From assembly GCF_018987235.1 (NCBI RefSeq), contig NZ_CP072197.1:1054001-1118000 (forward strand): a stretch of 64,000 nt of DNA. Reading direction: 5' to 3'. Below the pieces are notes generated by a model that searched no databases, was not told where the DNA came from, and saw only the letters and a list, made by a program, of their open reading frames with translations. This DNA is from Lactobacillus crispatus (GTDB taxonomy: Bacteria > Bacillota > Bacilli > Lactobacillales > Lactobacillaceae). Positions 24,602-37,537 of this stretch are shown here, piece by piece (positions within the stretch are counted from its first letter, which is position 1; each line of letters opens with the position of its first letter). The translations under genes and the position numbers were made by a program.

Positions 24602-26478
24602 TTAATGTTTCAATTTCTTGTAAGCTTTTTTGGAGCCACGATCTAGATCACGATTAAACTTATAATCTTGCCAGTCTTTAACAAAGAGTAAATCTAAGTT
24701 ATATCCTTTTGGGTACAAGTCTTTAGCTAGTCGTCTTAATTGTAAACGTCTGAGTGGTACTTCTACAAATTCTTTTGCCAAAAATATCTTTGCTGCATTT
24801 TGGGTAGGAAGATATTTATAAAAGATTCCTTCTTCTTTTAAATTGGTAGCATATACAATATCACCTTTATGAAATTCTTTTTTAACAACCAGGTTGCTTT
24901 TGTTTTTCCGCTGGTGAACGAAACGTTTTTTAAAGATAAAGGTAAATTATTGCCCGCTAATATGGCTTCTGCTTGATGCAGAACATTTTCTGGAATACCT
25001 GATTTTTTGGCGATCCATAGTGCTCGACTATTACCAATACTTCCTATCTTTAACTTATAAGTAGGTTGCAGATTTTTTAAGTCAAAATCCATTGCAGCTG
25101 TGATAAAACCATCATGCTGCTTAGCAAAATCCTTAATAGAGCTGTAGTGTGTTGTGGCCATGATTAAACAGCCACGTAAATACAACTCTTGTAGAATTCC
25201 AATAGCGAGTGCGCTTCCTTCATTTGGATCTGTCCCTGTCCCTAATTCATCTAATAATACTAAACTATGGAATTGAGCATATTTGGTAATCATGGCAATA
25301 TCTTTCATTTCGGCTGAAAAAGTACTCAGAGAATTATCTAGGTCCTGGTGATCACCTATTAAAGTAAAAACGTCATCCATTAATGGAATATCACATGGTT
25401 TATCGCTTGGTAAAAACAGACCTAGTTCGGTCATTAAAATCATCAAACCAGTAGTTTTAAGCGCGACGGTTTTACCACCAGCATTTGGTCCTGTAATCAT
25501 TAGAACACTATTTTCTTGGGTTAATTCTAAGGTTAACGGAACAGGATTAATGATCAAGGGATGCCGCACTGCACGTAAAACAAGAGAATTTTCACGATTA
25601 ATTTTAGGCCTAATACAATTATATTTTTGTGCAAACTTTCCCCTAGCAAAAATCATATCTAGTAAAGTGATTAGTTCAATGTTACGCTTAATATCATCCT
25701 TCACGTCGTATATTTTTGCAGTTAAAGCACCTAAGATTGCTAGTTCTAGATTACGTATTTGTGCCTTTAAATTGGTTATTTGCTGATTTAGACGAACAAC
25801 CTTAGCAGGTTGAAAGTAGACGGTTTGTCCACCATTAGAAACAGCCACAATAGTCCCTGACAATTGATTTTTGTAGTTTGCTTTAATTGGAATGGTAGCG
25901 TAGCCCTCTTTTTCAACGATCATTGCGTCTCTAATCATTTTTTGATTAGGTTTACTAGTCAAAAAATGATTTAATGCAGTTTTGAGTTCAGTAACAGATT
26001 TCTTTAAGTCGCGGCGCATTTTTGCTAGTTCACGATCTGCCTCATCGCGTACTTGACCATGTTCAATAGTAGTATAAATAGCATTTTCAATGTCTGGCAA
26101 TAGCGTCATGTCTTGGACATATGCATTGAGTAATGGTGCTAGCTGCTCATGTCTGGCTAAAAAGCGTTGTAGTAGGCGATTTACTCGTAAAAATTCTGCT
26201 ACTTTTTCTAGATCATCGGGAGTTAAGATTAGTCCTTTTTCAGCTTTAGTAATTAAATGCTCGATATCCTCAGAACTGGCAAAAGGAATGTGCTGCCGTA
26301 ATTTCAAAATCTTCACGGCTTCTTCTGTTTCATTAAGCAGTTGTTCTACTTTATGTAAATTGCTACTTGGTTGGGCGGAACTTAATTGTTCTTTGGCAGC
26401 AATAGTAATTGCCTGTTGAGCTAAGATATCTTTAACTTGAGTAAAGTTTAAGTTTTGATTATTGTTGATATTTTTCAA
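24602..26478 (-). pseudogene. MutS2-like ATPase gene broken by a frameshift
   Basis: The first frame (546 codons) covers a MutS2-type core: clamp/lever helices and the ATPase with Walker A MITGPNAGGKT, Walker B LVLLDELGTG and TTHYSSIKDF. About residue 520 it leaves frame at a run of six A. Adding one A restores a continuation of ~105 residues (KKRFVHQRKNK to the stop at 24602). Repaired length is about 625 residues, with no C-terminal Smr nuclease domain, so it is a short MutS2 paralogue rather than canonical MutS2. The ATPase domain itself is complete and could still be made as a truncated protein. Confidence 0.75.
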
Positions 26479-28461: not shown

Positions 28462-30153
28462 ATGGCATTTGATGGATTATTTATCCATAGTTTATTAAAA
28501 GACTTAGTCCCTACTCTGGTAGGTGGTCGCTTATCAAAAATTTATCAACCATTTGATCAAGACCTAGTCTTAATTTTTAGAAAAGATAGAAAGAATTATC
28601 AATTTTTAATTTCGGCCAATGCACAATATCCAAGAATGTATTTGACTAAACAAAACATTGCAAATCCTGATAAAGCACCTATTTTTGTCATGGTTTTAAG
28701 AAAATACTTAGAAGGTTCAGTTTTGCAATCGATTGAGCAAGTTGGCTTAGGCCGAATTGTCAACTTTCATTTTAGTAATCGAAATGAACTTGGTGATCAA
28801 GTCAAGCTCGTGCTTTCTGTAGAATTAATGGGACGTCATAGTAATGTCATCCTTTATAATCAAGAAGACAATCACATTATTGATTTACTTAAGCGAATTA
28901 ATCCTGATGAAAATAGAGCGCGTGTTTTACTGCCAAAAGCAAAATATGAGTTGCCCCCACTAAAACCAGGATTAAATGGGTTGACTCTATCAGAAAGTGA
29001 ATTTAAACAATTAAGTAGTGAAAACCAGCCTAATGAAATTGCTCAAAAAATGGATGGCTTAGATAAAGATGATCGAACTGAATTATTAGGCTATCTTGAA
29101 GACGATTACACTTATTCATCTTTTAAGATCTTTTTTAATCAGTTTGACAATCCGCGTGCTTTTATTTTAAAAACACCTAGAAATAAGCGTAAGATTTTTT
29201 GTTATTTGCCCTATCATTTAGATTTAGAGAAAGAAAGCTCTAATCCAGATCTGAATGCTGGCTTAGATGAATTTTATGAATATCAGGCAACACGTGATTG
29301 GGTTAAGCAGCGTGCAGGACAAGTTGAACGTGTAGTTAAGAATGAGCAAAAGAAACTAACTAAGAAAGTTAAAAAACTTGAGAAGCAATTAGATCTTGCT
29401 GAAAATTCAGAGGGCTATAGAATTAAAGGCGAAATTTTAAATGCAAATTTGGCTCAAGTAAAACCTGGAATGACTAAAGTTTCATTACCTAACTATTACG
29501 AAAATAATGCTCCATTAGAGATTAAATTAGATCCTGCTCTCTCCCCTGCTCGTAATGCGCAAAAGTATTTTACTCGTTACAAAAAGTTACGTGATTCTAT
29601 TAAGCACATTAATGAACAGCTTCGTATTGCTAAGGATGATATTCGTTACTTTGATTCAATTCAAACAGCTATTGACAATGCGAATCCACAGGATATTGAT
29701 CAAATTACAGATGAATTGATTAATCAAGGATATTTACGTAAACAAAAGAAAAATAAGCGTAGGAAGAAAATCACTGAACGCAATTTAAATGAATTTAAAC
29801 TTTCATCTGGTAAACACGTATTGGTTGGTAAAAACAACTATCAAAACGATTGGCTTACTCTTAAAAAAGCTAATAAATCTGATTACTGGTTTCATGTTAA
29901 GAATATGCCAGGCTCACATGTGATCTTACGCGATGATCAGCCTACTGATCAAGATATTAAAGAAGCGGCTGAGATTGCAGCTTACTTTTCTAAGGCTAAA
30001 AATTCCGCTCACGTACAAGTTGATTATGTGCAAGACAAGCGTGTGAAAAAGCCTAATGGTGCTAAACCAGGATTTGTAATCTACACTGGACAAAATTCAA
30101 TTGAAGTAACTCCTGAAGAAAAGGAAATTATGAATAAAAAAATTGAAAAATAA
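28462..30153 (+). CDS. rqcH: NFACT-family protein RqcH (fibronectin-binding protein A homologue)
   Basis: 563 residues. NFACT-N domain at the start (FDGLFIHSLLKDLVPTLVGGRLSKIYQP), a long charged coiled coil around residues 280-410, and the C-terminal NFACT-R domain (KKANKSDYWFHVKNMPGSH). RqcH binds stalled 50S subunits and adds Ala tails to incomplete chains; some homologues were first described as fibronectin-binding proteins. ATG 28462 follows GAGGTGAT; an upstream in-frame start at 28453 overlaps that ribosome site. Confidence 0.9.
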   Translation: MAFDGLFIHSLLKDLVPTLVGGRLSKIYQPFDQDLVLIFRKDRKNYQFLISANAQYPRMYLTKQNIANPDKAPIFVMVLRKYLEGSVLQSIEQVGLGRIVNFHFSNRNELGDQVKLVLSVELMGRHSNVILYNQEDNHIIDLLKRINPDENRARVLLPKAKYELPPLKPGLNGLTLSESEFKQLSSENQPNEIAQKMDGLDKDDRTELLGYLEDDYTYSSFKIFFNQFDNPRAFILKTPRNKRKIFCYLPYHLDLEKESSNPDLNAGLDEFYEYQATRDWVKQRAGQVERVVKNEQKKLTKKVKKLEKQLDLAENSEGYRIKGEILNANLAQVKPGMTKVSLPNYYENNAPLEIKLDPALSPARNAQKYFTRYKKLRDSIKHINEQLRIAKDDIRYFDSIQTAIDNANPQDIDQITDELINQGYLRKQKKNKRRKKITERNLNEFKLSSGKHVLVGKNNYQNDWLTLKKANKSDYWFHVKNMPGSHVILRDDQPTDQDIKEAAEIAAYFSKAKNSAHVQVDYVQDKRVKKPNGAKPGFVIYTGQNSIEVTPEEKEIMNKKIEK

Positions 30154-30189
30154 AAATCATCGAACTAGTTAGTTCAATGATTCTCATAA

Positions 30190-30227: not shown

Positions 30228-33200
30228 TTAAATAGGTTGAGTAGTTAAAGCCAATGATTCTAGAACGTCTAAAATCAATTCCGCTGTTTCGATACTTGAG
30301 AAAACAGGAATATGTGTATTCAGCGCTTCATCTCTGATGCGCGATGCATCTTCGCTAGCTGCATCAGACAAATTAGTAATATTAATAACCATGACGATCT
30401 TATGTTGACGAATTTTATCTAGTAGATTTCTAGGGTCTTTATGAACCTTCTCCACTACTCCAGTAGTAATCCCAGCTTCCGCAAACATATTAGCTGTTCC
30501 TTCGGTCGCAATTAATTTGAAACCCAAGCGATCAAATCGGCGAGCTAGTTGGGTCACGCGATTCTTGTCTTCATCTCTGACTGAAATAAAGATTGTTCCA
30601 TAACTTGGAATATGTAAATCACTTGCTTCATATCCTTTGTATAAAGCCTTAGCTAGTTGAGTATCTCGACCCATTACAGAACCTGAGGATTTCATATTTG
30701 AATCGAAAGTATTACCACTTGAATAATTAAGAAATGAAAATACTGGCATTTTAATATGAATAAAATCGCTGTTTTGCCATAGACCATTAGGATATCCTAG
30801 CTCTGCTAAATTTTTGCCAATTAAAGCTTCTGTAGCACAAGTAGTGATATCCTTATCTAGTGATTTTGATAAAAATGCTACATTATGACCTGCATATGGT
30901 TTAATTTGCAATAGATATAGGTCATTATCAACGAATAAATAGTGCAGATTAAAAATACCTTTTGTTTTCAGCTGCTTAATTAATTTAATTGACTCTTGCT
31001 CAATCTTTTTTTGCTGCTCTTCGGTTAAATTTTGCGGCTGAATCACTGCAATTGAATCAGAGGCATGCGAACCTGTTTGCTCTAGATGTTCAATTATACC
31101 GGGCAAAGTTACATTGGTACCATCAGAGATAGCCGTTACCTCATATTTGTGTCCCTCAATAAAGCGAGAAATAGTTATTTGATCAAGTTGGTTTTCTGCT
31201 AAATATTTCTCTATTGCAGGAACATCATAAACAACTGCAGATTTTTTCTTGTTTTCTTTATTCATACCGCCAATTAAAAGTGGAAAACCATATTTAGAAG
31301 CAAAAGCGAAAACCTGGTCTGTATCAGTTGTTTTATTTAATGCCGGGACCCGCTTTAAGGTAGTAAATTGTTGATCAAGCAAAGTAGTAATCTTATCCCG
31401 CGGATCGTCGTTTGCCTTTTGCCCAATAACGTGCAAACCACATTTTTCCAACTCTTTACTCAATGCACTGATTCTTTTGCCAGAAAATTGAACTAATACA
31501 TCAGAAATATTTTCTCTTTTAGCAACAGTTAGAATATTTTCAACTGTAATGGAATCAAAATAAACTCGGTCAATATTCTTATACCTTGATGAAATCGATT
31601 CGTCATTATTTGATAGAAGCACAGTAACATAGCCATACTTATGTAAAGTATCGGCCGCGTGAGCAATCATATAGTCAAACTCGCTAGTAACCGAAACTTG
31701 AAGCGGCAACATGCCCAAAATCAAGATCTTTTTTTCAGCATTTAAAGCTTTTGCTTCATTTTGAACATCATATGCACTGTAGTAAGCACAAACATTAGGT
31801 TTATATATACCTGCTGAGCCGTCGATCTTCAAATATGATGGCTGCAAGTCAATTTTATTAATCAAAGAGCGAACTTCAGTAACTGATTTTTGTAAAATCT
31901 TAGCTAATAATGGGTTAAAGAATCCATAGTCTTTAGCTTCTTGCAGCAAATCACGCGAAGGCTGCTCCTTCTCTTGTAATAACTTTTTGCCAAGTCTTAC
32001 AATGTGAAGCAATTTCTGATAATAAACCGGATGCAAATGTGTTACTTTTTGTAATTCAGAATATGGAATATCTTGATCAATTGCGGCTAATAATTTAACT
32101 AAATGCAATTCATCAGGATGTGCCAAATCATTCAAAATATCTGCAGTGGATTTTTCTTTTTCTTTTATAAAAGCATGCCAACCCAGTTCTAAATTAATAG
32201 TTGCATCTAAGCCTTTCAGAAAAGCAGTTTCAAAATTACGCCCTACACCCATTGCTTCTCCACTTGCTTGCATGCGACTTCCTAGCAAATAGTGGTTATA
32301 ACCGGATTCAGCAAATGACCAATATGGCATTTTAATTGCTACTGCATCTAAGGTGGGTTCAATTGAGGCATTAAGTCCAGATAGAGGATCGGTAATCTCA
32401 TTCAGTCGATAACCGATAGCAACTTTGCTAACGACATATCCCACATCATACATTCCAATTCTTTGAGCCCAAACAGAACTTCGCGTCAAACGCGGACGAA
32501 TCGTCAAAAGCTTAGATCGAATTTGAGTTCCATGGTGTTTAATCGCAAAATGAAAACTAGCAAATCCAATGAGATCAAGATTAGACATGATTTTTCTAAC
32601 GGTTATTCTTAACTCTTGAATATGATCATTGCTTAGGGTTAATGATGGCATCACAACTGCAGAGTCACCTGAATTAATACCTACAGCTTCAATAGATCCC
32701 GCAAAATTGATAAAAGCTAAATTGCCATCCTTATCACGGATTACGTCAACAATTACTTCTTCCCAACTAGATAAGTCTTCAGTTAAGCGATAATTCTTCC
32801 ATGTAAAATTATCATTTTGCTTTTCTTCTTTAAAGTAACTGATTAAATCGGTAGGATTTGCAAATTGCAAATGTTCGTTGTGTACAAAACGGTTGTACTT
32901 AGTAACTAATACGGGAAAAGTGACTTTGTCGTTAATGCTTTCTAGCGCATTATCTAAATTATCCTGAATACTCTGATTAAGTTCCCAAGATTGCCCGGTA
33001 TCAATATGTAGCTTAGTAAGCAACTTTGTCTTTTTCTGTTGATTCCCCATTTGTAGAGCACGCGAATTCAATGTTAGTAACTGAATTCCCATTTGTTCTA
33101 AAATGCCATCTTGTAATAACTTATGTGCAACCTTTAAACCATTAGTTGAACCATAAGCTGTCATAATTGCATCTGGCTCTTCCATCCGTAGAATTCTTTT

Positions 33201-33422
33201 CAGGAAGTCGAGAGTCATCGGTTCAAGATAGACTGTTACACCAGATTTTTTATCAGTTGAAATTGTAGCTGGATTAGGATTGACTAGCACAACTTGAATG
33301 CCTTCTTCTGTCAAAGCATCAATTGCTTCTGTTGCCATAAGATCCATTTCTGCTACACTACCGATTAAAGTAGGGCCTGATCCGATAATTAAAACTTTAT
33401 CTAAATCGTTTTCTAATGGCAT
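30228..33422 (-). CDS. CarB-like protein, catalytic residues lost in both halves (pseudo-carbamoyl-phosphate synthetase large subunit)
   Basis: 1064 residues, the full CarB length, with the duplicated ATP-grasp halves and the C-terminal MGS-like allosteric domain. Overall alignment to CarB is easy (LVNPNPATISTD, GDSAVV, GEAMGVGR). The catalytic ligands are gone. First half: E. coli E299/N301 correspond to T307/R309, Q285 to H291, H243 to N250, and the Gly-rich ATP loop after R169 is replaced (VTKYNRFVHNEHL). Second half: E841/N843 correspond to Q839/K841, Q829 to H827, and the R715 segment is replaced. In contrast the MGS domain keeps ATEGTA, EKVH (K992) and INIT (N1014), which match nucleotide-binding residues. 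The frame is fully open. It starts 4 bases after the carA-like stop. Carbamoyl phosphate synthesis by this protein is very unlikely; a regulatory or sensor role is possible. Confidence 0.85.
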   Translation of the reverse strand: MPLENDLDKVLIIGSGPTLIGSVAEMDLMATEAIDALTEEGIQVVLVNPNPATISTDKKSGVTVYLEPMTLDFLKRILRMEEPDAIMTAYGSTNGLKVAHKLLQDGILEQMGIQLLTLNSRALQMGNQQKKTKLLTKLHIDTGQSWELNQSIQDNLDNALESINDKVTFPVLVTKYNRFVHNEHLQFANPTDLISYFKEEKQNDNFTWKNYRLTEDLSSWEEVIVDVIRDKDGNLAFINFAGSIEAVGINSGDSAVVMPSLTLSNDHIQELRITVRKIMSNLDLIGFASFHFAIKHHGTQIRSKLLTIRPRLTRSSVWAQRIGMYDVGYVVSKVAIGYRLNEITDPLSGLNASIEPTLDAVAIKMPYWSFAESGYNHYLLGSRMQASGEAMGVGRNFETAFLKGLDATINLELGWHAFIKEKEKSTADILNDLAHPDELHLVKLLAAIDQDIPYSELQKVTHLHPVYYQKLLHIVRLGKKLLQEKEQPSRDLLQEAKDYGFFNPLLAKILQKSVTEVRSLINKIDLQPSYLKIDGSAGIYKPNVCAYYSAYDVQNEAKALNAEKKILILGMLPLQVSVTSEFDYMIAHAADTLHKYGYVTVLLSNNDESISSRYKNIDRVYFDSITVENILTVAKRENISDVLVQFSGKRISALSKELEKCGLHVIGQKANDDPRDKITTLLDQQFTTLKRVPALNKTTDTDQVFAFASKYGFPLLIGGMNKENKKKSAVVYDVPAIEKYLAENQLDQITISRFIEGHKYEVTAISDGTNVTLPGIIEHLEQTGSHASDSIAVIQPQNLTEEQQKKIEQESIKLIKQLKTKGIFNLHYLFVDNDLYLLQIKPYAGHNVAFLSKSLDKDITTCATEALIGKNLAELGYPNGLWQNSDFIHIKMPVFSFLNYSSGNTFDSNMKSSGSVMGRDTQLAKALYKGYEASDLHIPSYGTIFISVRDEDKNRVTQLARRFDRLGFKLIATEGTANMFAEAGITTGVVEKVHKDPRNLLDKIRQHKIVMVINITNLSDAASEDASRIRDEALNTHIPVFSSIETAELILDVLESLALTTQPI

Positions 33423-33426
33423 ATAA

Positions 33427-34482
33427 CTACCCCATCATCTGTAAAAAATAATCAAAAATTTCATCTGCATCATTAGTGCCTGGTGCTCCTTCAGGATTAA
33501 AAGCAGTGGCGATCAATTTGTCCTTACTGTTCCAGAAGCCCGCCATCAGTTCACTGTGTAGATCAAAGTATTCACGATTCATATTCATCTTCACACTATC
33601 AGGCAACACTAGTTGGTCAATATTCATCGCTGTTTGCCAGATAGCATTACTATTTTGTTCAATCACTGGATAATTAATACCATCAAATTCTTGTGGTAAT
33701 TGAACCAGTTCAAAGCCGAGATAATCGCTCAAAGTTAAAAAACCTAATCCGATTCCTAAAATTGGATACTTACCATAAAAATGATCTAAAACTGGCGTTA
33801 GCTGATTAATTACTTCTTCTGGTTTTCCTGGCCCATTTGAAATAATTATTCCTTCAGGACGTAAGTTTTCAATATCAATCGGACTGGCACTGTATGGTAA
33901 AACTGTCGTATTTACTTTTCGTAAAGATAAAGCACGCAGCATTGAGTGCTTTAGCCCAAGATCTAGCACAGCTACAGTTCGTCCAACATTAGGGGATGCA
34001 TATGCATTCTTAGTTGAAACAGTCGCAGATTTATTTTTAGGTAAAACTAGTGCTTTAATCTGATCAAAGGCATGCTCGTCATTAGTATCCATGATCGAAG
34101 CCTTAATTGTACCTTCTTCCATTAGACGATGAACTAAAGCACGAGTGTCAACTTTGAAAATTGCAGGGATGTTCTTTTCTTTCAAAAAAGAACTTAAATC
34201 TTCAAAATTTTCACTATCTGAAATATTTAATGCAATATCGTTAGCAATAATCCCTTTAACTACGGGATCAATACTTTCATAATCAATGGCATTAATACCG
34301 TTATTACCAATCATTGGTGAAGTAAAGACTAAAATTTTACCAGCATTAGTAGGATCTGTTAATGCTTCTTGGTAGCCAAAATTAGCCGTTTGAATTGCTA
34401 ATTCACCGGTTGAAATAATACTGGCACCAATTCCTTCACCTGGAAATGAACTGCCATCTTCTAAAATCAAATAACGTTTCAT
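33427..34482 (-). CDS. CarA-like protein, glutaminase nucleophile lost (pseudo-CarA)
   Basis: 351 residues, normal CarA length. The N-terminal CPSase small-chain domain is recognisable (LEDGSSFPGEGIGA, GYQEALTDPTNAG, VDTRALVHRL), followed by a class I glutamine amidotransferase fold (ISNGPG at 214-219). The nucleophile elbow, normally GICLGHQ, reads GIGLGFL at 243-249: Cys to G245, His to F248, Gln to L249. The catalytic His in FHPE is N329; E331 remains. Glutamine hydrolysis therefore should not occur. It lies 4 bases after rluD and 4 before the carB-like gene, in one operon. Distant but intact, so selected for some other role. Confidence 0.87.
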   Translation of the reverse strand: MKRYLILEDGSSFPGEGIGASIISTGELAIQTANFGYQEALTDPTNAGKILVFTSPMIGNNGINAIDYESIDPVVKGIIANDIALNISDSENFEDLSSFLKEKNIPAIFKVDTRALVHRLMEEGTIKASIMDTNDEHAFDQIKALVLPKNKSATVSTKNAYASPNVGRTVAVLDLGLKHSMLRALSLRKVNTTVLPYSASPIDIENLRPEGIIISNGPGKPEEVINQLTPVLDHFYGKYPILGIGLGFLTLSDYLGFELVQLPQEFDGINYPVIEQNSNAIWQTAMNIDQLVLPDSVKMNMNREYFDLHSELMAGFWNSKDKLIATAFNPEGAPGTNDADEIFDYFLQMMG

Positions 34483-34486
34483 ATTA

Positions 34487-35398
34487 TCACTTACTTGTTT
34501 GTTCTAGTTGAGCCAACGTTTCTTGAAAAATTTGTGGTGGTTCTACACTAAACTCTAGCCATTCGCCAGTACTTGGATGTTTAAATCCTAATACTTTAGC
34601 ATGCAAAAATTGACCATGACCTTTCAAGGTTTTACGTGGACCGTATAATGGGTCTCCTGCAACCGGATGTCCAATATAGTCAAGATGAACTCTAATTTGA
34701 TGGGTTCTTCCAGTTTCAAGCTGACACTCAATTAAGCTATAATCCTTGAACTGCTCAAGCACCTTGAAGTGAGTAATAGCTTTTTTGCCTGTTTCAACTA
34801 CCGCCATTTTCTTGCGGTCATATGGATTGCGACCAATTGGTGCATCAATTACCCCATTTTCTTCCGCAAAATTACCATGAACAATTGCCCAATAAAGACG
34901 TTTGTTAGTCTTATGAGCCAATTGATCTTCTAATGATTCACGAGCCTTGGCGGTCTTAGCGATCATTAATAAACCAGATGTATCTTTATCAATCCGGTGG
35001 ACAATTCCAGGACGAAATCCTTCTGGTGATTGTGCTAAGGCCTTGGTGTGATATAACAACGCATTTACTAAAGTATGATCTGGATGACCTGGTGCGGGAT
35101 GCACTACCATACCTTGAGGCTTGTTAACTACAATGACATCATCGTCTTCATACACGATATCAAGTGGAATATTTTCGGGTATAACATCTAACGGTTTAAC
35201 CGCTGGAATATTAACTTCGATTTTATCTCCCGCCTGAATCTTATAAGATACTTTTTCGACTTTGCCATTAACTAGGATATTTTGGTCTTTAACCAGTTCT
35301 TTAACTCTAGTTCGAGATAGATCAGGAATTTGTTCTGAAACAAACTTATCTAAACGTCCCTTTTCGTTTTTTACTTCAAGTGAATATTCTTTAGTCAT
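34487..35398 (-). CDS. RluD-type 23S rRNA pseudouridine synthase
   Basis: 303 residues: N-terminal S4 RNA-binding domain (RLDKFVSEQIPDLSRTRV, ILVNG) and a RluA-family catalytic domain with HRIDKDTSGLL (catalytic Asp) and GRTHQIRVHL. It probably modifies 23S rRNA; RluD numbering of the sites is inferred from the family. ATG 35398 overlaps the lspA stop by 8 bases (ATGACTAA), with AAGGAAG upstream; a longer start at 35419 is less likely. Confidence 0.88.
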   Translation of the reverse strand: MTKEYSLEVKNEKGRLDKFVSEQIPDLSRTRVKELVKDQNILVNGKVEKVSYKIQAGDKIEVNIPAVKPLDVIPENIPLDIVYEDDDVIVVNKPQGMVVHPAPGHPDHTLVNALLYHTKALAQSPEGFRPGIVHRIDKDTSGLLMIAKTAKARESLEDQLAHKTNKRLYWAIVHGNFAEENGVIDAPIGRNPYDRKKMAVVETGKKAITHFKVLEQFKDYSLIECQLETGRTHQIRVHLDYIGHPVAGDPLYGPRKTLKGHGQFLHAKVLGFKHPSTGEWLEFSVEPPQIFQETLAQLEQTSK

Positions 35399-35855
35399 GT
35401 TGTTCTTCCTTACCTTCAATAAAAATTAAGTAAATGAACACAAGGATTACTCCAACAGTAATTGCGGAATCCGCAATATTAAAAATGTTGAAGTGAACAA
35501 AATCAAGCTGAAGCATATCAACTACATATTTTAAATGCAAACGATCAATAAAATTACCAACAATTCCACCTAAGATGAGGGCTAAACCCGCATCAAACAA
35601 GGTATTCTTGTACTTTTTGTTAAAAAGAAAATACAAGCAAACACTAATGGCAATAATACTGATAATGTAAAAAAGCCACATTTGACCAGTTAAAATGTTC
35701 CAAGCCGCGCCATTATTTTGTAGATAATTAAAAGAAAGAATTCCAGGAATAATCTGGTGTACTTCTCCTATAGCATAATGAGCAACAATATAATTTTTTA
35801 GTCCTTGATCAGCAAGAACGACAACTAATGAAATAATTAAATATAAAAATTGCAT
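35391..35855 (-). CDS. lspA: lipoprotein signal peptidase
   Basis: 154 residues, four membrane spans, aspartic peptidase that removes prolipoprotein signal peptides. Family motifs: ADQGLKN, LQNNGAAWN, GNFIDRL (first catalytic Asp) and FNIADS (second). It overlaps rluD by 8 bases and lies 5 bases after fhs. Confidence 0.92.
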   Translation of the reverse strand: MQFLYLIISLVVVLADQGLKNYIVAHYAIGEVHQIIPGILSFNYLQNNGAAWNILTGQMWLFYIISIIAISVCLYFLFNKKYKNTLFDAGLALILGGIVGNFIDRLHLKYVVDMLQLDFVHFNIFNIADSAITVGVILVFIYLIFIEGKEEQHD

Positions 35856-35860
35856 ATTTT

Positions 35861-37537
35861 TTAGAATAATCCACTAATTTTACCATTGTTATCAACGTCA
35901 ATGTCTAAGGCTGCAGGATGCTTAGGTAAACCAGGCATATCTAGCACGTGACCAGTAGTGACTACGATAAAACGAGCTCCATTTTTTAAACTAATTCCCT
36001 TTACATGAAGCTTAAAATCAGTTGGAGCACCTAATTCATTCTTATTATCAGTGAATGAATATTGTGTTTTAGCGATAATTACAGGTAAGTTAGCCTTGTC
36101 TAACTTTCTTAATTCTTCGATTTGTTTTTCAGCTTTTTCGCTGTATTCAACTCCGGCTGCATGATAAATCTTAGTGGCGACTTTTTTAATTTTATCTTTA
36201 ACATCGTCATTATCTGCGTATGTTGGAGTTAAATTTGCTGCATTAGAATTAGCTAAATTAATCACAGCTTGAGCAGCTTTAATGCCACCTTTTGAACCTT
36301 CACCATGGTAAGTAACCACTTGAGCTTGAACGGCCTGTTCTTCAATTAATTGCTTAAGTAAAGCGAGTTCTTGTTCAGTATCTGAAGCAAAACGATTGAT
36401 CAAGACAATTACTGGTACATTGTATGAACGCATATTATTCATGTGTCGTTCTAGATTCTTAAATCCTTCTTTCAATGCATCCAAGTTTTCTTCATTTAAA
36501 TGATCAGTTGAGCCTAATGCCTGATATTTTAAAGCACGAACAGTTGCTACAACTACTGCAGCATCGGGCGTCTTGTCCAGATGTCTTGAGACAAAGTCCA
36601 TGAACTTTTGCCCACCAAGATCACTACCAAAGCCGGCCTCAGTTAATACATAGTCGCTTAAATGCAAAGCCAAGTTTGTCGCAATGACGGAATTGGCTCC
36701 ATGTGCGATATTAGCAAAAGGCCCCCCGTGCACTAATGCTGGTGTGTGTTCCAAGGTCTGTACTAAGTTAGGCTTCAGCGCATTAGACAATAGTGCAGCA
36801 ATTGCACCTTGGAATCCTAACTGTTTAACATAAACCGGCTCATCATCTTTAGTGTAGCCAACTAGCATATCACCAATTCTACTCTTTAAGTCGTTGATAT
36901 CTGTTGCTAAACAGAGAATTGCCATTAATTCATTAGCAACAGTAATAGCAAAACTAGCTTGGTGCTCAACACCATTGAATTTAGAGCCTTGACCAACCGT
37001 GATTTTTCTTAAAGCACGGTCATTAACATCAAGCCCACGCTTAAGTAAAATTCGGTCAGGATCAAGATTTAGGCTATTGTCTTGGTAGATGTAGTTATCA
37101 ACTAAAGCTGCAAGTGTGTCAATTGCGGCAGTTAAAGCATGCATATCTCCTGTGAAGTGTAGGTTGATATCTTCCATAGGGATGATTTGTGCTTTCCCAC
37201 CACCTGTAGCACCGCCTTTTAATCCAAAAACAGGTCCCATCGAAGGTTCACGCAAGGCGATCATCGCATTCTGGTGCAACTGATTGTGAATTGCATCCCC
37301 CAAGCCAATTGTAATCGTTGACTTACCTTCCCCAGCGGGAGTAGGAGAAATTGAGGTTACTAATACTAATTTACCTAACTTTTTACTAGCACGAGTCCTG
37401 TTAATGGCTTGCCAAGTAATCTTAGCCTTATCATGACCATAAGGTTCTAAGTCTTCCTCTTTCAAGCCTACCTTAGCGGCTATTTCATTAATAGGTAATT
37501 CTTTGGTTTCTTGTGCGATTTCAATATCTGATTTCAT
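35861..37537 (-). CDS. fhs: formate--tetrahydrofolate ligase
   Basis: 558 residues. ATP-dependent formation of 10-formyl-THF from formate and THF, feeding purine and fMet synthesis. Motifs: [17 protein letters not shown] (P-loop-like), [20 protein letters not shown], and [13 protein letters not shown]. Length is typical. Its ATG overlaps the stop of the upstream small membrane gene by one base (TAATG), so translation is coupled. Confidence 0.95.

Follow-up and report, generated by a model that had tools for sequence, protein, structure and literature searches.

Results

A CPS-like gene pair next to rluD

In a 64,000-nucleotide stretch of the Lactobacillus crispatus genome (assembly GCF_018987235.1, contig NZ_CP072197.1, positions 1,054,001 to 1,118,000; hereafter the window), two adjacent genes encode full-length relatives of the small (CarA) and large (CarB) subunits of carbamoyl-phosphate synthetase (CPS) in which most of the tested catalytic residues are replaced. 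We call them pseudo-carA and pseudo-carB. The features of the locus, in window coordinates, are as follows (aa, amino acids).

33427..34482, reverse strand: pseudo-carA, inactive-type CPS small subunit, 351 aa, with CPSase_sm_chain and GATase domains; C269G, H353N
33748..33750, reverse strand: codon of Gly245, at the position of the nucleophile Cys269 (E. coli numbering), from the CarA alignment
30228..33422, reverse strand: pseudo-carB, inactive-type CPS large subunit, 1064 aa, from Pfam/NCBIfam and residue alignment
32229..33047, reverse strand: first ATP-grasp region of pseudo-carB, residues 126-398; ligands mostly lost, variable
30633..31427, reverse strand: second ATP-grasp region of pseudo-carB, residues 666-930; ligands mostly swapped for invariant Gly, Lys, His, Gln or Tyr
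30300..30554, reverse strand: MGS nucleotide-sensing domain of pseudo-carB, residues 957-1041, from a Pfam match
34487..35419, reverse strand: rluD, immediately 5' of pseudo-carA in the same direction; a neighbour at nearly all loci read
35391..35855, reverse strand: lspA; a neighbour at nearly all loci read
35861..37537, reverse strand: fhs, formate--tetrahydrofolate ligase; a neighbour at most loci read
30150..30187, reverse strand: terminator-like stem 3' of pseudo-carB, 17 pairs then a T run, from a consensus scan that found 6 stems against 5.7 expected by chance

Both open reading frames (ORFs) are open, with 4 base pairs (bp) between them, and pseudo-carA starts 4 bp downstream of rluD, giving the order lspA-rluD-pseudo-carA-pseudo-carB, which faces fbpA. 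A preliminary description of this DNA, made from its sequence alone, had reported a full-length, contiguous pair in the company of rluD, lspA and fhs, and was right on both counts: the two ORFs are uninterrupted and all three neighbours lie upstream on the same strand. It had also noted the absence of pyrimidine genes, which is true of the locus now but overlooks that this is the ancestral position of the pyr operon (see below). A normal pyrR-pyrB-pyrC-carA-carB operon lies 0.3 megabases from the pair in the same genome. No RF00515 PyrR-binding RNA was found between window positions 26000 and 40000, and with no adjoining pyrR either, the pair bears neither mark of a PyrR-controlled gene. The same genome encodes a further PyrR-like protein, 64% identical, at G000:C1:1764939. 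Elsewhere in the window, a putatively MutS2-like ORF of 546 aa (24838-26478) has an odd C-terminal end and looks shortened or frameshifted.

Both subunits keep the CPS architecture and lack catalytic residues

Pfam and NCBIfam name the two proteins CPSase large and small chains, and both have the domain architecture of a functional CPS. They pass the PRK-type models NF003671 and NF009475 and fall below the cut-offs of TIGR01369 (pseudo-CarB, 680 bits against 1027) and TIGR01368 (pseudo-CarA, 264.5 bits against 307). The fold, predicted for pseudo-CarB only, is intact (pLDDT 86.9; TM 0.87-0.88 to E. coli CarB). E. coli residue numbers were transferred by motif, and the catalytic roles are those given in the CPS literature. 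Three sequences were dropped from the residue alignments (L064, at a contig end; L083, with a split frame; L090, a true CarB with an internal gap) and L197 was left out of the CarA column counts; because L104 and L135 share one contig, 49 of 50 rows are distinct for each subunit and the 48 pseudo-CarB sequences include one duplicate.

In pseudo-CarA of the window we found C269G, H272F, Q273L and H353N. C269G and H353N recur in 50/50 Lactobacillus-type sequences (49 distinct), with Glu355 retained, and glycine occupies position 269 in the homologues from sister genera (2/2) and in the short-type (21/21) and Schleiferilactobacillus-type (3/3) lineages described below. The glutaminase triad Cys269-His353-Glu355, which the preliminary description had considered lost, has thus lost two of its three members. 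The first ATP-grasp site of the window pseudo-CarB carries R129Q, R169T, G175V, G176H, E208T, E215I, Q285H, E299T and N301R, and keeps R303 and R306. Among the 48 Lactobacillus-type sequences, R129, R169, E208, E215, Q285 and E299 are lost in all and N301 in 47, with replacements that differ between sequences at most positions; R303 is retained in 48/48 and R306 in 35/48. The ligand positions of this site have a mean entropy of 1.31, the first ATP-grasp region as a whole 1.38.

The second site of the window protein has R715G, G722K, E761K, Q829H, E841Q, N843K, R845Y and R848H, with R675 and H788 retained. E761K, Q829H, E841Q, N843K, R845Y and R848H are uniform in 48/48 sequences and in both sister-genus sequences, as is the retention of H788; R715G is uniform too, although the alignment from R715 to G722 is uncertain and a wider alignment gaps the R715 column. 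None of these 50 proteins therefore has the second-site ligand set (R715, E761, Q829, E841, N843). The MGS domain scores 77 bits with Pfam and is the least variable domain of pseudo-CarB (entropy 0.76); T973, G975, T976, K992 and N1014, which include the phosphate-binding Thr/Thr/Lys/Asn set (T973, T976, K992, N1014), are invariant in all 48 and in the two sister-genus proteins. Strong conservation is found in the N-terminal half of CarA, the MGS domain, the swapped second-cleft residues and the first pre-ATP domain. The alignments show both the glutaminase and the phosphotransfer chemistries of the pair to be short of the residues that they would require, and agree, for most ligands, with the earlier claim that both ATP-grasp sites are stripped of theirs, and with that of a well-kept nucleotide-sensing domain.

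The pair is retained under purifying selection

We surveyed 75 Lactobacillus genomes, with a quality subset defined as at least 90% complete and at most 5% contaminated. Pseudo-CarA was found in 73/75 genomes, the exceptions being G199 (59% complete) and G032 (76%), and in 60/60 of the quality subset. Pseudo-CarB was found in 74/75, at full length and in a single frame in 71; it is split in G021 and partial in G001 and G032, and G199 gave only a weak match. YN00 returned values for 4/13 pseudo-CarB pairs, 4/13 pseudo-CarA pairs, 2/6 true CarB pairs and 1/6 true CarA pairs, the missing values being probably due to saturation. In the G012/G096 comparison, dN/dS was 0.039 for pseudo-CarB vs 0.031 for true CarB, and 0.076 for pseudo-CarA vs 0.045 for true CarA; the two remaining unsaturated pseudo-CarB pairs gave 0.020 and 0.052. 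Four of the 11 values (pseudo-CarB own/L070; pseudo-CarA own/L070 and L075/L079; true CarB own/L086) weigh little because dS exceeds 1.6.

Thirty-four positions are invariant in the 48 Lactobacillus-type and two sister-genus pseudo-CarBs and differ from a residue that is near-invariant in 39 true CarBs. Twenty of the 34 sit in the second ATP-grasp domain (Fisher p=4e-6, a value that serves as a guide, since the enrichment was tested after the list had been seen and on related sequences). In a control against 28 other true CarBs, the true CarB of Lactobacillus has 5 such positions and the pseudo set 31. The catalytic residues are lost, the frame is kept, and these comparisons show that purifying selection maintains an intact pair.

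The pair is also found without CarAB, PyrB or PyrR

A full-length true CarB is encoded in 51/75 genomes, which thus hold both pairs. No intact true CarB was found in 15 genomes of the quality subset (G026, G021, G013, G187, G003, G002, G195, G009, G005, G198, G200, G212, G214, G014 and G010), several of which are drafts where a gene may have been missed; pseudo-CarA is present in all 15 and an uninterrupted pseudo-CarB in 14. In seven of them (G187, G003, G195, G009, G005, G198 and G214, each at least 93% complete) neither PyrB nor PyrR was found; any matches were weak, at about 24-34% identity, which is what other carbamoyl- and phosphoribosyltransferases give. The pair, as far as gene content can show, needs neither CPS nor PyrR.

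Three further observations concern the true pyr genes. G014 has a whole pseudo-CarB and, elsewhere in the genome, a decaying pyr operon with stops in PyrB and a remnant of CarB; G010 (L090) has a true CarB with an internal gap and an intact pseudo-CarB; and L. johnsonii and relatives (L084, L085, L094) have a second pyrR-like gene after the true carB.

The locus is the ancestral site of the pyr operon

In L095, the segment between rluD and fbpA contains a canonical pyrR-pyrP-pyrB-pyrC-carA-carB operon, and L097 and L102 have the same gene order with an unnamed ORF of pyrP length. The same segment holds pyrP-pseudo-carA-pseudo-carB (L115) or pyrR-pyrP-pseudo-carA-pseudo-carB (L116) in sister genera, with a PyrR-binding RNA upstream at both loci. 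At three Schleiferilactobacillus-type loci, pyrR-pyrP-pseudo-carA-pseudo-carB adjoins fbpA, and rluD is adjacent in two; PyrR sites at the two loci checked (L158, L160) are weak and sub-threshold. At 21 loci from 13 other genera, pseudo-carA is followed by a short pseudo-carB (818-882 aa), with pyrR directly upstream in 18. None of the Lactobacillus loci read has a pyrR adjoining the pair. From this gene order, the segment between rluD and fbpA is, we conclude, the ancestral site of the pyr operon.

Inactive-type pairs thus occur in at least 17 of the 40 Lactobacillaceae genera sampled, a count of inspected loci, those of other genera being mostly uninspected. A short-type CarA profile (E<=1e-122) is passed by 249/397 genomes and 25/40 genera, which is not a count of inactive CarA, since this cut-off also admits genera that have the canonical operon there.

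These lineages keep different parts of the enzyme. The Lactobacillus type has most of its second cleft frozen and retains the MGS domain. The short type is without MGS (coverage 0.02); in it, 18 switched positions show at least 85% conservation among 26 sequences, R169K and E299K of the first site being among them. The Schleiferilactobacillus type retains all tested first-site ligands and has lost the second site and Cys269; its members L158, L159 and L160 would be half-inactive CPSs with an apparently complete first (bicarbonate) site, which might still make carboxyphosphate. In a first CarA tree the short type falls among true CarA, and in a topology test on CarA (L188 and L103 left out) a tree that joined all pseudo lineages was not rejected (p-AU 0.68) and scored slightly better than the free tree; a tree of the first half of CarB, a quick one with long branches, gathered every pseudo sequence behind a single branch (98). 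The expectation that the pair would cluster apart from true CarAB thus holds for CarB and is less clear for CarA, and the two trees would fit one origin or several, long branches making both unsure.

Two observations lie outside these lineages. Three Streptococcus genomes (L197, L201, L202, L203; one S. parasanguinis-like, the others of the same genus code) have a pseudo-carA with C269G in 3/3, position 353 still being His in L202, and a first-half-only carB (577-579 aa) behind pyrR, with pyrB between in L201 and L202; no other CarA was found in these three genomes, which represent a further inactive-CPS lineage. A Lactobacillus-type locus in a record titled Faecalicatena absiana (L151) is probably due to contamination or mislabelling.

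A second pyrR accompanies the pair in Lactiplantibacillus

The order lspA-rluD-pyrR-pseudo-carA-pseudo-carB was found at 6/6 Lactiplantibacillus loci read, with C269G in 6/6 and a short-type pseudo-CarB of 852-855 aa; genus g55 was tied to Lactiplantibacillus by a 100% match to an L. brownii protein. The PyrR of this locus is 63-65% identical to that of the complete pyr operon elsewhere in the genome (five genomes with both were read). A 2006 study by Arsene-Ploetze reportedly found that deletion of pyrR2 causes a requirement for high CO2. In L. plantarum, pyrR1 is lp_2704 and pyrR2 is lp_1782 (PMC7911632), and PyrR1 has been described as responding to pyrimidine and PyrR2 to inorganic carbon (PMC3582564). 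From the genus-wide gene pattern, lp_1782 is presumably the pyrR of the pseudo-carA-pseudo-carB locus. In the accessible parts of the literature searched, we found no mention of the genes behind pyrR2 as an inactive CPS, and a search for any described inactive CPS, judged by title, found none.

Discussion

Our analysis suggests, with a probability of roughly 0.6, that the pair forms a conserved, non-catalytic, ligand-sensing regulatory complex descended from the carAB genes of a pyr operon that once sat between rluD and fbpA. In this model, pseudo-CarA and pseudo-CarB would retain the CPS-type heterodimer, and the MGS domain would bind a phosphorylated effector of the UMP, IMP or PRPP type; the invariant MGS site fits such a nucleotide-responsive role. 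The signal would travel from MGS to the remodelled second cleft, as in true CPS, where Lys, His and Gln in place of the Mg2+ and phosphate ligands may accommodate an anionic ligand with no need for Mg2+ or ATP turnover, and the complex would then act on a partner, either a protein or an RNA. Ancestrally this partner was probably PyrR, encoded next to the pair; in Lactobacillus it would be another one, at least in places. In favour of this model are the loss of catalytic ligands, the retention of the pair at low dN/dS, the frozen second-cleft residues, the invariant MGS site, the predicted CarB fold, the presence of pyrR and pyrP next to the pair in sister and further genera, and the PyrR-binding RNA at both sister-genus loci.

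Several observations pull the other way. The pseudo-carB frame is split in G021 and both subunits are missing from the incomplete genome G199; pseudo-CarB diverges faster than true CarB, with a mean identity of 0.62 (12 sequences) vs 0.87 (11, from about the same genomes). The second cleft is partly unfrozen, with variation at R675 and G721 and a G722K that the sister genera do not have, and the domain enrichment was tested post hoc. No PyrR site was found at the two short-type loci searched (L119, L121), nor at the window locus. Finally, one mechanism may not fit all, since the lineages keep different parts of CPS, and the invariance of the second cleft might instead reflect a new active site.

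It is possible, but in our view doubtful, that in all lineages the pair is the sensor subunit of a PyrR2 pathway, tuning pyr transcription to the supply of bicarbonate or carbamoyl-phosphate. The pyrR directly upstream at 18/21 short-type and 5/5 further Lactiplantibacillus loci, or beside pyrP upstream at 3/3 Schleiferilactobacillus-type and 1/2 sister-genus loci, speaks for such a role, as do the 63-65% identity of the locus PyrR to the pyr-operon PyrR in Lactiplantibacillus, the reported response of PyrR2 to inorganic carbon and the bicarbonate-phosphorylating ligands kept by the Schleiferilactobacillus type. However, E299 is Lys in the short type (Arg in 2/21), and bicarbonate phosphorylation is therefore unlikely there; Lactobacillus loci have no adjoining pyrR, and as seven genomes have the pair but neither PyrR nor PyrB nor a true CarB, PyrR cannot be its partner everywhere in Lactobacillus. 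A universal PyrR partnership was thus rejected for this genus. More speculative still is the idea that the pseudo-CPS, kept at the pyr locus across Lactobacillaceae, might be the missing sensor of inorganic carbon or carbamoyl-phosphate status. It would work alongside PyrR2 in Lactiplantibacillus and its relatives, whereas in Lactobacillus it would have a new partner and control a non-pyrimidine process.

We consider it improbable that the second ATP-grasp cleft has been remodelled to catalyse a different reaction: residues invariant across 50 sequences are what an active site would be expected to have, but the acidic and Asn Mg2+ ligands that ATP-grasp chemistry needs have become Gln and Lys, the glycine loop is gone, as is probably Arg715, and the neighbouring genes give no clue to a substrate. 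The proposal in the preliminary description of a decoy subunit for true CarAB fares much worse; the two pairs coexist in 51 genomes, but the 15 genomes without an intact true CarB, and G014 with its decaying operon, argue that the pair outlasts its supposed target and is not merely a CarAB decoy, and a decoy acting on CarAB alone was ruled out as a general answer. Slow decay of pseudogenes, to which the faster divergence and the one split frame might point, is hardly credible, and we rejected it because of the near-universal retention of intact frames, the pseudo-CarB dN/dS of 0.02-0.05 in unsaturated pairs and the frozen second-site replacements. The same intact relatives and low dN/dS support the earlier suggestion of selection for a non-catalytic function.

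The regulatory complex that we favour resembles several known systems in part. It shares with the CPS CarAB (E. coli, PDB 1BXR/1C30/1JDB; pyrimidine-type PyrAA/PyrAB) its gene order, domain order, length, MGS site and predicted CarB fold, but differs in the replacement of Cys269, His353 and most tested ATP-grasp ligands, and in a second cleft with a different, largely invariant set of residues. The Lactiplantibacillus module with the second pyrR occupies the same chromosomal site and likewise has inactive-type CarA and CarB; unlike the Lactobacillus pair, it has an adjoining pyrR, a pseudo-CarB without MGS and some frozen first-cleft residues. HisZ, of the short-form ATP phosphoribosyltransferase, is an inactive ligase paralogue retained as a ligand-sensing regulatory subunit and, unlike our pair, has a known catalytic partner. 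Yeast Ura2 has an inactive dihydroorotase-like domain (PMC6245113), a case of an inactive enzyme retained in the same pathway; it is a domain of an active multienzyme, whereas our pair would be a free two-subunit complex outliving its pathway.

What is new relative to the preliminary description is the origin at the pyr locus, the freezing of the second cleft and the occurrence of related inactive-type pairs beside pyrR in other genera. Where databases name these proteins, they call them carbamoyl-phosphate synthase, and because of this name metabolic models may credit lactobacilli with a pyrimidine or arginine capacity that they do not have. A two-subunit CPS that has apparently lost its catalysis and outlived its pathway would be a candidate regulator, so far unexplored, in bacteria that are common in the gut, the vagina and food, and its position behind the second pyrR in Lactiplantibacillus opens the CO2-dependence of lactobacilli to direct testing.

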